Assembly: GCA_001516065.1 (NCBI GenBank)
Contig: LOEV01000026.1
Coordinates: 1-35,360, forward strand
Reading direction: 5' to 3'
Origin: Alphaproteobacteria bacterium BRH_c36
Lineage (GTDB): Bacteria > Pseudomonadota > Alphaproteobacteria > Rhizobiales > Hyphomicrobiaceae
Length of the DNA: 35,360 nt
Part shown: piece by piece, positions 16,778-22,400 of the stretch
Position numbering within the stretch: the first letter of the stretch is position 1
Layout: every line of letters begins with the position of its first letter
Position numbers and translations under genes: made by a program
Notes under the pieces: model-generated
Told to the model about the DNA's origin: nothing
The model's input: the letters and a program-made list of their open reading frames with translations, nothing else
Databases searched by the model: none

Positions 16778-17263
16778 TTATTCGACCTCGTCGGCCGAGT
16801 CGGCGTTCAACAAGCCGTAATTCTCGGCACCGATTTTGTTCAACAATTCAATCTGGGTTTCGAGGAAATCGATGTGTCCTTCTTCGTCTGTCAGCAATTC
16901 CTCGAACAGCGCCATGGTAACGTAGTCTTCTTTCGCGCGGCAAAGCTCACGGCCCGTCATATAGTGCTCTTTGGCGATGTACTCTCCTTTGAGGTCGCAG
17001 TCGAGCACTTCTCCGACGTTTTGACCGATCATCAATGGCGCGACGTGCTGAAGGTTGGGATGCCCTTCCAGAAAGATGATCCGCGCGACGAGTTTGTCGG
17101 CGTGTTCCATCTCCTCGATGGATTCGGCCCGCTCCTTCTTGGCAAGCTTGCTATAGCCCCAATCCTCTAAGAGCCTGTAATGTAGCCAATATTGGTTGAC
17201 CGCACCGAGTTCGAGTTTCAAAGCTTCGTTCAGTGCGTCGATAACTTCCTTGTGGCCTTTCAA
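16778..17263 (-). CDS. bfr: Bacterioferritin
   Basis: 161 residues from a TTG at 17263, preceded by GGGAGG at ideal spacing. Bacterioferritin forms a 24-subunit cage that oxidises and stores iron and binds heme between subunit pairs. All ferroxidase residues are at their canonical positions (E18, E51, H54, E94, E127, H130), as is the heme ligand M52. So this gene looks functional although its neighbour upstream, a DUF2325 gene, is broken. It is the last gene of a minus-strand iron-storage cluster with a Bfd-like ferredoxin; Bfd proteins are known to release iron from Bfr by electron transfer. Confidence 0.96.
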
Positions 17264-17308
17264 CGTTGGCCTCCCGTCATGTTGACTGTTCGCGACGAGA
17301 TTGTGCTC

Positions 17309-18450
17309 TTATTCTTGATAATGCAAGTCCAGAAGCGCGCGCTTGAAGCTGTCCGACCCTCAGGAGCGCAATGGGACGAACGGCTTGCGATGCTTACGAC
17401 AGAGTTTTTTTCGCGCTCGCACGCGCCATGACTGATGCAGTCTATGGGGCAGAAAACTGCATCGCAGCGTGAAACCAGGTCATCGATGAGCTCAACTGTC
17501 TGCTCCAGACCACCGTCGTGGTGCATAATATCCGCATTTGGCTTGCCGCGCGATATCTCGCAGCTGCTCCATGCTACTCTGGCGCCCACCAAGGTAAAGC
17601 AGCGTGCGCGGCGGCAAATCGATGGTGCAAGCCTCGGCTCCAGGACAGTTCGAAGCAGGACTATTGCGTAGCGCGGCACGCCGCGAGGCAGCGTGTAACG
17701 ATTTCAGTTGCCGTGTGAGGTCTTTAACCTGTTTTTCGGCTAAGCGCGCTCTTTGGTGTACGACTGTGATGGCGCGCTCTTTGCGTATAAGAAGGCGATA
17801 GGGCGGCGATCCCGTCCGGCTGGGGCGGTGATGCTCAGAGCTGGACATTGGAGTTCTGACACAGCCGGTTGGCATCTGCTTGACAAGTAGGCAAGGCGCC
17901 GGTCGCGCTCCTCGATAGCAGCGCGATGGCGGTCACGTTCGCGCTTCAGATGGGCTTCGAGTGCCTGTACACGCCCGTTGAGGTCACCGGCTTGAATGGC
18001 TTGAGCATGGGTCGTGCGGCCAAGGACCTGGCTAAGCATGTGAACTTCGCCGAAGATACGTTTTCGAAGTTCCAGGGGAACATGCGTATGGCTTACGAGT
18101 GTCCAGTAGGCGCCTGCAATGTGGCCTGCCTCATAGGCTTCCGTCCAAAAAACTGAGCATTTCTTGTTCATCCGAGAGTCGCCCCACGCGCCGCAGCACG
18201 CCGCCATATCGACGGTCTAGTTCCTTCTGCAGAAACCTAGCCGTCTTGGTGGCCGAACAGGCTTCATTCACGAAATAAGCATGGACGTCGTACTCACAAG
18301 TTTTGGCAGGAACCTCAATCCGCGCCCGCCGCGCTATCTTGAGGATGTCCGCATGCGATAAGCAGGTGCCGATAATGGAGCACTGCAGATTATCCGGGAT
18401 CTCCCAAAGCGCAAGCGACTCTTTTCAGGGATACTGAATTCGGAGGTGTT
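17309..18450 (-). pseudogene. Frameshifted DUF2325 gene, paralogue of the intact one at 21.2-22.4 kb
   Basis: Conserved text appears in several frames in order: LWEIP and CSIIGTCLS, FWTEAYEAGHIAGAYW, GEVHMLS-VLGRTTHA, a coiled-coil stretch, NCPGAEAC, LLYLGGR, MHHDGGLE, FCPIDCISH, and FVPLRS. At least four frame changes separate them, near 18140 (within a run of six T), 17780, 17560 and 17390. The stop of the last piece is at 17309. Its cysteines and histidines match those of the intact paralogue: the positions equivalent to C58, C64, C299, C305, C367, C371 and C377 are kept. The upstream end is uncertain. It lies between a Bfd-like gene and bfr, in the same direction. Confidence 0.85.
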
Positions 18451-18502
18451 TATGGGCTTGCCCTGAGCGGTAATTCCGAAACTGTCTGAGTTGCACACTG
18501 GA

Positions 18503-18823
18503 TCACTCTGCCCCTGACGCAAGCTTGTCCGACTCAACCCGGGCGTAAATCTTCCGCAAGTCGGTGCGACGCCTGCGATCGAGAGCGTCGAGTGCAGTGC
18601 CACATGCGTAGGGACATATCAGGCCTTTGGCCTTGAGCACTTCCAGCTTCTTGTAAATCACCTCGACGGCAAGCGGCGCGCATCCGCAGCAGTTCAACTT
18701 CTTCTGCAGGTGCCTCCAGACGACGCCGGGTGTCGGCAGCGGTGCATTTTCCTGGATCATGATGTCAAGGAGAGCCAGCTCGATATCGTGATCAGAAATC
18801 ACGGTGCATGAGCAGATGAGCAT
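18503..18823 (-). CDS. bfd: Bfd-like [2Fe-2S] protein with C-terminal extension
   Basis: 106 residues from the ATG at 18823, with GGAG 10 bases upstream. The first 55 residues match bacterioferritin-associated ferredoxin: C4-x-C6 near the start and C45-x2-C48 (NCCGCAP) before a short helix. Typical Bfd has about 64 residues and CxC-x(about 31)-CxxC. Here the spacer is a few residues longer and a charged tail of about 40 residues follows, with two more Cys (CPYAC). Bfd passes electrons to bacterioferritin to mobilise stored iron; bfr lies in the same cluster. The gene follows the orphan gene by 16 bases, so the two are probably cotranscribed. Confidence 0.75.
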   Translation of the reverse strand: MLICSCTVISDHDIELALLDIMIQENAPLPTPGVVWRHLQKKLNCCGCAPLAVEVIYKKLEVLKAKGLICPYACGTALDALDRRRRTDLRKIYARVESDKLASGAE

Positions 18824-20494: not shown

Positions 20495-20564
20495 CGCCCA
20501 CTCCATTGCCGCCATGACGCGAACATGGAATCATATTCGCAACTGCCCGTCAGGCGACAATTTC

Positions 20565-21082
20565 AACAGCCTGCTAGACGAGGTGCTGATCGATTATGTC
20601 GATGGTGCTTACGGCAGCGATAATCCCGGGAATGAATTCTATACCGCCAACGTCATCGCCAACCCCAAGCTGAAGTTCGGCGGCAAAGAGGTTTACGCTT
20701 CGAATATCACCAAGGCGATTCTTGCCGACGAACTGCATGAAGCCTCTGGCGTGAACGTGGCCACCGGCTACCACGCCATCGAGTTCCTGCTTTGGGGGCA
20801 GGATCTCAACGGAACAGGTCCTGGCGCCGGAAAGCGACCGGCGACCGACTTCGATCCCAGGAATTGCACGGGCGGCAACTGCGAACGCCGCTGCGCCTTT
20901 CTGAAAGCAGCTACGGAACTGCTTATCGACGACCTGGAGTAGATCGAGTGGTCCAAAGATGGAGAGGCACGCAAGGCCGTCGCGAGCGACGGCGGCGTCA
21001 AGGCGATCTTCACCGCCTTGGATCACTGTCCTACGGCGAGATGGCCGGTGAGCGGATAAAGCTCGGCATGCGTGGAAAATGA
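20565..21082 (+). pseudogene. Degraded imelysin-family (iron-regulated periplasmic) gene
   Basis: Recognisable from LIDYVDGAYG through FYTANVIANPKLKFGGK to GYHAIEFLLWGQDLNGTGPGAG, containing the imelysin GxHxxE signature. A TAG at 20940-20942 interrupts the frame; similarity goes on (KDGEARKAVAS) and then shifts frame near 21018 to GSLSYGEMAGERIKLGM. Both ends of the gene are missing; the left end abuts an IS fragment. Imelysins are periplasmic or surface proteins usually linked to iron uptake, consistent with the island's theme. Confidence 0.85.
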
Positions 21083-21158
21083 TCGGGTCGCCGTCCACAT
21101 CCAATTGATAGACTTCGTTGATCCGCAGGTGGCTTCCCGCGGCGAATTTGCATGCAAA

Positions 21159-22400
21159 TTACGCGCCGATTTCAATGCGCTGCAATGCTTTTTCGAAAGT
21201 CGTACCACCGGCCGATCTCAGTGGGACGAATGCCCGTTGCAACTTGCGGCAATGGTCCTTCGCAGCCAGGCAGGCGCGGTGGCTGACACAGTCGACCGGG
21301 CAGAACACCACATGTGAACGCGCGACAAGATCCCGTATCCGTTGCAGCGATTCCTGCAATCCGCCGTCGTGATGCAGAAATTCGGCACGTGCCTCAGTGG
21401 CGATCTTGCGCAGACGATCGACCGTCCCGGTTCGTCCTCCAAGATAGAGAACATGCAGCTTCTCACCCGGCGGGATCTGCAGGCGGCACGCCGCCGCCCC
21501 TGGGCATTCCGGCGACGAAAGGTCAGCTACCTCTTGCATCGCGAACCGGCGCAGGCGTGAGCGAATTGCTTTATTTTCGCGCTCCAGTTCGATTACGCGA
21601 GACTCTGCTAACCGCGCCCGTTCACGCGAAGTTACAAGGGTCGTATCTCTCTTGGAACTGAAGCGGCGCGGTCCGCCCACTTTCGAATTGTCCGACGCCA
21701 ACCCGGCGGCGCGGTTGATCCTTTCCGATTGCAACGACTCGATTGTGCGGTCGCGCTCGCCGATGGCCCGCTGTTGGTGCTCACGTTGGCGGGCTATTTT
21801 GGCTTCAAGATCCGCGATCTGGGAGGCAAGCTCCGATGCTCGTTCCGCCTCAGCGTGCGTGGTCCGCCCGAGGACGTGGCTTAACATGTGGACCTCGCCA
21901 AAAACGCGAGAGAACAATTCTTCAGGGACATGAGCGCATGTGTGAATTGCCCAGTAGATGCCTGCAATCCTGCCGGCAGCGTACTCGCGCTCCCAAAGCT
22001 GTTCCAGGTCCGCAGAATTCTTTATGCGGGCGACAATACGCAACATGCCGGCATGGCGGCGGTCGAGCAGCTTCTGCACCGCCCGGGCGATCGGTCCCTC
22101 CTCGCAAACCGCCTTCACCACGTAACTGTGTATTTGGTAGGGGCGCGCTCCATTCTCGATTTTGAGGCCGCAACTCTTCAACACAGTCGCAAGGTCGCGA
22201 TCGGAAAGGCAAGTCCCGATGAGGGAGCAATGCGTACAGACGCGGATTTCCCAGAGTTTCACGCGCGAGGAACCAAGCGCGCCGACGACGCCGTCATCCC
22301 GTGTCAGTCGCTCGATGTCCAGGTTGCCGGCAAACTGGTCGAGACTAGGAATGGCTTTAGAATTTGTTCGCGGCTGTGGCAGTCGATCATTCCTGCACAT
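21159..22400 (-). CDS. DUF2325 protein with Cys/His-rich N-terminal region (intact)
   Basis: 413 residues. The N-terminal region carries C55-x2-C58-x5-C64 and a conserved block GEVHMLSHVLGRTTHAEA (169-186) with H157, H171 and H182. A coiled coil fills about 187-290. The C-terminal DUF2325 domain (about 317-410) has VLYLGGR, HHDGG (343-347), CPVDCVSH (C367, C371, H374) and FVPLRS. C299 and C305 (CPGAAAC) lie just before it. The DUF2325 function is not known. It starts 26 bases after hutX and so is the last gene of the heme-receptor operon; a broken paralogue ends the iron-storage cluster. I infer an iron- or heme-linked sensing or redox role. The start is uncertain because the Shine-Dalgarno is weak. 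Confidence 0.8.
   Translation of the reverse strand: MCRNDRLPQPRTNSKAIPSLDQFAGNLDIERLTRDDGVVGALGSSRVKLWEIRVCTHCSLIGTCLSDRDLATVLKSCGLKIENGARPYQIHSYVVKAVCEEGPIARAVQKLLDRRHAGMLRIVARIKNSADLEQLWEREYAAGRIAGIYWAIHTCAHVPEELFSRVFGEVHMLSHVLGRTTHAEAERASELASQIADLEAKIARQREHQQRAIGERDRTIESLQSERINRAAGLASDNSKVGGPRRFSSKRDTTLVTSRERARLAESRVIELERENKAIRSRLRRFAMQEVADLSSPECPGAAACRLQIPPGEKLHVLYLGGRTGTVDRLRKIATEARAEFLHHDGGLQESLQRIRDLVARSHVVFCPVDCVSHRACLAAKDHCRKLQRAFVPLRSAGGTTFEKALQRIEIGA

Follow-up and report, generated by a model that had tools for sequence, protein, structure and literature searches.

The window analysed here, a stretch of 35,360 nucleotides, corresponds to contig C26 in a draft genome of 3.7 Mb and 85.7% completeness, a Filomicrobium-like metagenome-assembled genome (MAG) of the Hyphomicrobiaceae. 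It carries two genes with DUF2325, a domain of unknown function: an intact gene at the end of a heme operon and a broken paralogue in a bacterioferritin (bfr) cluster (Table 1). Among the relatives of the intact protein, clades of long DUF2325 proteins are attached to iron/heme, molybdate or nickel/cobalt (Ni/Co) modules.

An earlier note on this DNA, made from the sequence alone, had the intact gene closing a receptor-monooxygenase-hutX operon, and this is borne out. The gene order is TonB heme receptor, hmuQ, hutX and DUF2325, with gaps of 134, 4 and 26 bp, and the receptor, HmuQ and HutX all score over their cut-offs. Pfam DUF2325 (PF10087) covers residues 317-408 of the protein with 67.8 bits (E 9.6e-19), over the curated cut-off of 33.6. 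The gene closest to the intact copy lies in a genome of the same genus, Filomicrobium sp. ih4 (L031), and is 65-66% identical; it is preceded by a TonB-dependent receptor (best score that of a siderophore receptor, below cut-off) and followed by a MerR gene. A search for an Irr-box-like palindrome gave no match in the window. The intact copy most likely belongs to heme-iron acquisition.

The paralogue was rightly placed between a Bfd-like gene and bfr, and it is more damaged than a single frameshift would make it. As the sequence stands, it is split into some five pieces that switch back and forth between two frames and contain internal stops, and it therefore carries several lesions. All seven cysteines named earlier as shared (C58, C64, C299, C305, C367, C371 and C377 of the intact protein) and the block GEVHMLS-x-VLGRTTHA are visible in its pieces, but C299 and C305 proved not to be family-wide. 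Residue 175 is Gln in the broken copy, compared with His in 109 of the 109 proteins of the tree described below. Its pieces are 34-51% identical to the intact copy and 66-69% identical to the gene that follows the Bfd-like gene in another Filomicrobium MAG (L059), so that the pair is not a recent duplication and two sublineages met in this genome. Most likely the broken paralogue belonged to bacterioferritin iron storage.

Linkage to iron, molybdenum and nickel/cobalt genes

Enrichment of such proteins near iron or heme genes, predicted in the earlier note, was found in other genomes. In a sample of 397 genomes of the order, DUF2325 was detected in 46 and HmuQ in 239, with both in 32. HmuQ lay within 1 kb of DUF2325 in at least 12 of the 46 genomes, which represent five families and include the window, where random placement expects 0.024; within 10 kb it was found in at least 16 genomes by listed coordinates, with 0.15 expected. 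These counts rest on the matches listed and are lower bounds, and the expectation assumes random placement and ignores kinship. A tblastn search around cases not listed retrieved one more HmuQ within 9 kb (L127); the 17th genome by this search, G386, has HmuQ about 7 kb away. Five of the 12 close cases, all from one genus, have a short, domain-only DUF2325 0.3 kb from hmuQ, and one (G325) has a DUF2325 remnant only. HmuQ genes occur on either side of DUF2325, the short form included.

Neighbouring markers were also searched with tblastn in 80 named loci, which are 80 of 412 relatives found by peptide patterns. HmuQ was retrieved in 11 of them, Bfr in 12, imelysin in 11, the Bfd-like protein in nine, a di-heme oxidoreductase (DHOR) in eight, the unnamed ORF185 in eight and Fur in six. 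Of 35 loci drawn from the order, ten had HmuQ. The two sets overlap, as L114, L124, L128, L129 and L143 are the same loci as named ones. In 20 control regions, taken from the contigs of the loci at a distance of 100 kb, no iron, molybdenum or Ni/Co marker was found; all were drawn from the order genomes, and the wider named set therefore lacks controls. Some loci have an adjacent regulator gene: Fur in three loci of Gammaproteobacteria, at a distance of about 150 bp, an AphA-like regulator in 7 of the 80 named loci, Rrf2 in L036 and L037, and MerR in L031. An FbpA-like label for some neighbours was dropped after the one protein tested fitted no NCBIfam ferric-binding model.

A FastTree phylogeny was built from 109 long proteins, that is, 116 candidate rows (the window, 80 named and 35 order loci) less six duplicates and one truncated row, with five short loci excluded. 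Each row was labelled by the markers within 8 kb; the labels took no account of FbpA/B-like proteins, TonB receptors, ORF185, Rrf2, FecCD or generic periplasmic binding proteins. Of the 37 rows of clade A (support 96), 23 are iron/heme-linked, none has molybdenum and 14 have no marker; the window row was labelled iron by hand, and without it the iron count is 22 of 36. In clade C (35 rows, support 100), 24 rows are molybdenum-linked and none iron-linked, and in clade N (15 rows, support 83) nine are Ni/Co-linked and one iron-linked. The 22 leftover rows, group B, are not one clade and comprise nine iron, two Ni/Co, no molybdenum and 11 unlabelled rows. Labels change 27 times on the tree, whereas 500 shuffles gave 55 changes on average and never fewer than 45. 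The 30 tree rows from the order draw alone gave eight iron, three molybdenum, nine Ni/Co and ten unlabelled, and the clade C share of this draw was molybdenum-linked in three of five rows. Among representative markers, curated models confirmed ModA (three of four tested over a cut-off), the Mop domain, Fur and CbiM, and Pfam confirmed MoeA, TOBE, FecCD and CbiQ. The iron/heme association proposed earlier is thus real and non-random, but the family extends beyond iron, with one large clade linked to molybdenum and a further one mostly to Ni/Co.

Particular neighbourhoods recur. In one genus (f10 g120; L130, L131, L133-L135 and L137-L142), the long DUF2325 gene lies within 8 kb of CbiM/CbiQ, genes of a Ni/Co ECF importer, in 9 of 11 loci, and an unnamed short gene stands just upstream in four. 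In five Rhizobium loci (L097, L102, L103, L106 and L107), DUF2325 is followed on the same strand by msrB and a DipZ-type thioredoxin membrane protein, with a ModA gene 2.7-2.9 kb upstream in four of the five. Over the stretch compared, the DUF2325 of a MAG labelled Anaerolineae (Chloroflexota) is the same as that of an alphaproteobacterial MAG, and the neighbours are the same (L055/L056); the Anaerolineae-labelled contig may be mis-binned.

Domain architecture and conserved residues

The intact protein comprises an N-terminal helical Cys/His domain (about residues 44-186), a long helix with a coiled coil (about 160-293) and the DUF2325 alpha/beta domain (317-408). The N-terminal domain (44-186) is predicted to be all-helical, with a pLDDT of 94.6 and a pTM of 0.87. 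In an alignment of 80 rows, R46, C58, G62, T63, C64, H91, W136, G143, H171, M172, L173, S174 and H175 are invariant, a list that is partly biased because the 80 loci were found by two peptide patterns that cover some of these residues. In 30 rows found without peptide patterns, C58, H91, W136, H171 and H175 are present in 30 of 30 and C64 in 29. Across the 109 tree rows, some of them pattern-found, C58, H91, H171 and H175 are present in all and C64 in 108. The intact protein fits the long DUF2325 subfamily as defined here, namely an N-terminal domain with C58, C64, H91, H171 and H175, a coiled coil and DUF2325.

Conservation across the whole family includes H344, D345, C371, H374 and C384 in addition to those five residues. 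C299 is a subfamily trait: Cys occurs there in 11 of the 37 clade A rows, all 11 belonging to the Hyphomicrobiaceae branch, and among the rest of the 109 rows only once. C305 aligns as Cys in 7 of the 109 rows, and by eye a CPGAxAC motif is present in more. H344, D345, C367, C371, S373, H374 and C377 lie, by secondary structure, at the ends of neighbouring strands and just after them, and may form one site. Both C367 and C377 are Cys in 36 of the 37 clade A rows and 17 of the 22 group B rows, and also in the five short forms aligned (L146-L150), two of which lie within 0.4 kb of HmuQ. In clade C, all 35 rows have Phe at residue 367, as do 12 of the 15 rows of clade N.

Searches for known relatives of the protein returned little. 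The N-terminal domain has no Pfam name, and its fold search gave no match with E below 1 and no confident match in the PDB; a second look at 180 chains gave a best Z of 4.2, to Bcl-2-like helical bundles, which for a helical domain is no evidence. The fold search with the whole protein returned weak matches only, mostly to the C-terminal domain and none with E of 0.001 or less, and a sequence-profile search of solved structures retrieved mainly coiled coils (60 of the 120 matches shown). The N-terminal domain was not seen apart from the long protein among 289 genomes of the class: two genomes match, its own and one other, and both sites in the other also match DUF2325. Pfam and NCBIfam gave the intact protein no match to a flavin, NAD or thioredoxin family, and no sensor family was among its matches.

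Neighbouring genes and accessory distribution

The heme operon is accompanied by further heme-uptake genes, and the broken paralogue lies in a cluster that runs from an Rrf2 regulator to bfr (Table 1). The start of hutX was set by our choice at the ATG at 22972, as the mechanical open reading frame begins upstream, and that of hemP was picked by eye.

Table 1. Genes and gene remnants of the two iron/heme regions of the window, with the model matches behind their names
Feature	Position	Strand	Evidence or remark
bfr, bacterioferritin, intact	16778..17263	-	TIGR00754, 180.9 bits, over cut-off
Broken DUF2325 paralogue (pseudogene as the sequence stands)	about 17327..18420	-	Between Bfd-like gene and bfr
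Bfd-like [2Fe-2S] gene (BfdX)	18503..18916	-	Below Pfam cut-off; conserved part from near 18823
ORF185, unnamed, with conserved Cys, Asp, Glu and His	18840..19397	-	Upstream of Bfd-like gene and bfr
Rrf2-family regulator, head of bfr cluster	19592..20116	-	PF02082 and rrf2_super, over cut-off
Imelysin fragment (gene complete in relatives, e.g. L034)	20478..20942	+	PF09375, profile 68-141 of 288
Intact long DUF2325 protein, 413 aa	21159..22400	-	Pfam DUF2325 match
hutX, cytosolic heme carrier	22427..22972	-	TIGR04108, 198.7 bits, over cut-off
hmuQ, heme-degrading monooxygenase	22977..23327	-	NF053649, 156 bits, cut-off 130
TonB-dependent heme receptor, first gene of operon	23462..25873	-	TIGR01785, 471 bits, over TonB-hemin cut-off
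hemP/hmuP-type small protein, divergent from receptor	25941..26129	+	PF10636, 54.5 bits, cut-off 25
hmuTUV, heme-type ABC importer	26144..29434	+	hmuV over heme ATPase cut-off
hmuT	26144..27058	+	Named by family and place; below cut-off of best model
hmuU	27010..28158	+	Named by family and place; below cut-off of best model
hmuV	28562..29434	+	NF010068 heme ATPase, over cut-off

The product of the Bfd-like gene, BfdX, reached 16.9 bits with the Bfd profile (PF04324), short of the Pfam cut-off of 26, and its profile match to the Bfd chain 4e6k was weak (E 0.11). The cluster cysteines C-x-C and C-x2-C are present, C9, C11, C50 and C53 being invariant in nine aligned sequences. With the cut-off missed, the structural match weak and the cysteines in place, we name the protein Bfd-like only. 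The BfdX copy of a second cluster in this genome (L176, below) had no PF04324 match at E 0.001. ORF185 matched nothing in Pfam, NCBIfam or a profile search of PDB structures; in this protein (window 18840-19397; L176:2965-3492), D93, E94, Q105 and H106 are invariant and C91 and C115 near-invariant. Rrf2-type Fe-S sensors usually have three cluster-binding cysteines. These appear by eye to be missing from the Rrf2 protein of the window (19592-20116) and from that at L039:7251-7772, so the bfr cluster may have a regulator other than a RirA- or IscR-type Fe-S sensor.

The bfr cluster on the contig of the window is decaying, and a remnant of an IS1182-like transposase lies beside the imelysin fragment (window 20264-20942). 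A second cluster of ORF185, Bfd-like and Bfr genes lies on contig C156 of the same genome (L176) and has no DUF2325. L177 has the full arrangement Rrf2-ORF185-Bfd-DUF2325-Bfr-imelysin-DHOR-DUF1513, plus an FbpA-like gene that separates Rrf2 from ORF185, and most of the arrangement is also present in L032-L035, L038 and L039.

Among 103 genomes of the same family, ORF185 was detected in 82, Bfr in 77 and DUF2325 in 17. ORF185 and Bfr lie within 2 kb of each other in 22 of these genomes and are elsewhere apart or on different contigs. In 16 of the 22, the two genes are at one such place separated by only 377-811 bp, which leaves no room for a DUF2325 gene; in seven the spacing is 1.6-2.0 kb, the genome of the window having both kinds. 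Two small gaps that were inspected (L176 and L178) each contain a Bfd-like gene. As Bfr and HmuQ exist without DUF2325, the protein is accessory. DUF2325 as a core part of Bfd-Bfr clusters was considered and rejected, since many such clusters have no DUF2325.

Possible roles and known systems

The DUF2325 family is probably an overlooked helper or sensor in the handling of scarce metals. More specifically, the long form may be a cytosolic metal- or redox-responsive sensor or adaptor for metal uptake and storage, an explanation that we put first and hold tentatively. The N-terminal helical domain, with C58, C64, H91, H171 and H175, would hold a metal or redox-active site. The coiled coil would make a dimer, and the DUF2325 domain, with its conserved edge of His, Asp, Cys, Ser and His residues and the extra pair C367 and C377 in iron-linked clades, would bind a metal species or a partner. 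The constant N-terminal domain would sense or hold something common to all clades, and the DUF2325 domain would link it to a particular module. The protein would then signal metal or redox state to the machinery for uptake, degradation or storage encoded nearby, and tune it. Because no DNA-binding domain was recognised, it would be an adaptor whose targets are proteins or a neighbouring regulator (Fur, Rrf2, AphA-like or MerR) and not DNA.

Several observations weigh against a sensor or adaptor. The model of the whole protein has a pTM of only 0.48. No counted marker lies within 8 kb in 41 of the 109 rows, including 14 of the 37 in clade A, where the Azospirillum branch (L053, L065, L087, L089 and L104) adjoins a chemotaxis receptor and has no marker; the labels themselves are descriptive, since the markers were chosen after the loci had been seen. 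Among labelled rows, 31 with C367 are iron-linked and two are not, and 33 without it are not iron-linked and two are, but the association of the cysteine pair with iron is inseparable from ancestry because the tree shows only 4 changes in one column and 6 in the other. Three of eight short-form genomes (G385, G446 and G411) have no HmuQ within 9 kb. In the order sample, 207 of the 239 HmuQ genomes have no DUF2325, and ORF185-Bfd-Bfr clusters manage without it in the genome of the window and in others. Binding or mutant data for any long DUF2325 protein were not found in the literature searched.

The main rival is a metallochaperone or buffer, whose Cys/His sites would carry heme, iron or the cognate metal between the importer, HmuQ/HutX and Bfr storage; we consider it rather unlikely. 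The position of DUF2325 at the end of the receptor-HmuQ-HutX operon, and elsewhere between Bfd-like and Bfr genes, would suit such a carrier, as would the two extra cysteines of the DUF2325 domain in clade A. A parallel comes from the sections of PMC9426514 on Campylobacter jejuni cj1384c, which describe a 104-aa DUF2325 protein of unknown function with seven cysteines, whose gene lies next to katA and the heme-trafficking gene cj1386. However, HutX is already named as heme carrier in the operon, and most HmuQ genomes and many bfr clusters have no DUF2325. The Cys/His residues of the N-terminal domain are, moreover, the same in the molybdenum-, Ni/Co- and iron-linked clades, which is odd for a metal-specific carrier. 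The sensor or adaptor fits better than a metal-specific chaperone because of this constant domain, the different metals, the accessory pattern and the neighbouring regulators.

A role as redox partner or enzyme seems quite unlikely; the protein might, for example, supply thiols or electrons with which HmuQ or Bfr would reduce ferric iron, or repair oxidised proteins. Some neighbours are redox proteins (the Bfd-like ferredoxin, the di-heme oxidoreductase, MsrB and DipZ), katA stands beside cj1384c in the same sections of PMC9426514, and the conserved Cys, His and Asp residues could form an active site. Yet no flavin, NAD or thioredoxin family was matched, importers of Ni/Co or molybdate do not need a donor of this kind, and a Bfd-like ferredoxin is already at hand. 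Bfd has a role in the release of iron from bacterioferritin, according to the part of PMC7760384 concerned with it.

We give little credence to a general oxidative or redox-stress protein that would lie near metal genes only as those are stress-regulated. MsrB-DipZ genes do adjoin DUF2325 in Rhizobium, and the cited sections of PMC9426514 report cj1384c as the most induced gene under violet-blue light and state its regulation by PerR and RacRS, but stress genes do not typically include importers of molybdate or Ni/Co, and the clades divide according to metal. Accidental linkage or inherited hitchhiking without functional meaning is hardly credible: relatives do share neighbours by descent and 41 rows carry no counted marker, but the HmuQ proximity test strongly disfavours it, with hmuQ adjacent in five families, on either side and with the short form too, markers in 0 of 20 controls, and clades that differ in metal.

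A bolder version of the sensor or adaptor, in our view unlikely, would have the long DUF2325 proteins form a new, modular class of metal-status sensors or adaptors. Their common N-terminal Cys/His helical domain, whose fold was not recognised, would read a shared signal, and the DUF2325 domain would couple it to the cognate module through clade-specific ligands, the Cys pair 367/377 for iron/heme and Phe with Ala or Val for molybdate and Ni/Co. Through its linkage to heme degradation, bacterioferritin and the uptake of molybdate and Ni/Co, a domain of unknown function gains a testable role, and the family divides into clades for which sequence allows a guess at the metal. If a sensor or adaptor is indeed encoded, it would add a layer of metal control beside Fur, Irr, RirA and ModE, the known metal regulators.

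Known systems resemble the long DUF2325 protein in part. The nearest weak matches of the DUF2325 domain are PTS IIB (3nbm; E 0.005) and Rossmann-like, designed 2x2 folds (E 0.009-0.011), a likeness of fold only that shows no function for the domain. HemP/HmuP (PF10636) and Bfd (PF04324) are likewise accessory, non-transporter genes of the same operons or clusters, but DUF2325 matches neither family, and hemP and the Bfd-like gene are separate genes in the window. In the literature searched, no paper naming both DUF2325 and molybdenum was found; excerpts of other papers mention DUF2325 in an expression validation in Ensifer and as possible encapsulin cargo. Short DUF2325 proteins such as Cj1384 share the C-terminal domain (PF10087). 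In five genomes from one genus of the order, a short form is encoded 0.3 kb from hmuQ, and the passages of PMC4491227 and PMC3815106 on cj1384c call it highly iron-responsive and list it with the Fur-repression motif. Unlike the short forms, the long form also has a coiled coil and an N-terminal helical domain with Cys/His residues, and it includes molybdenum- and Ni/Co-linked clades.

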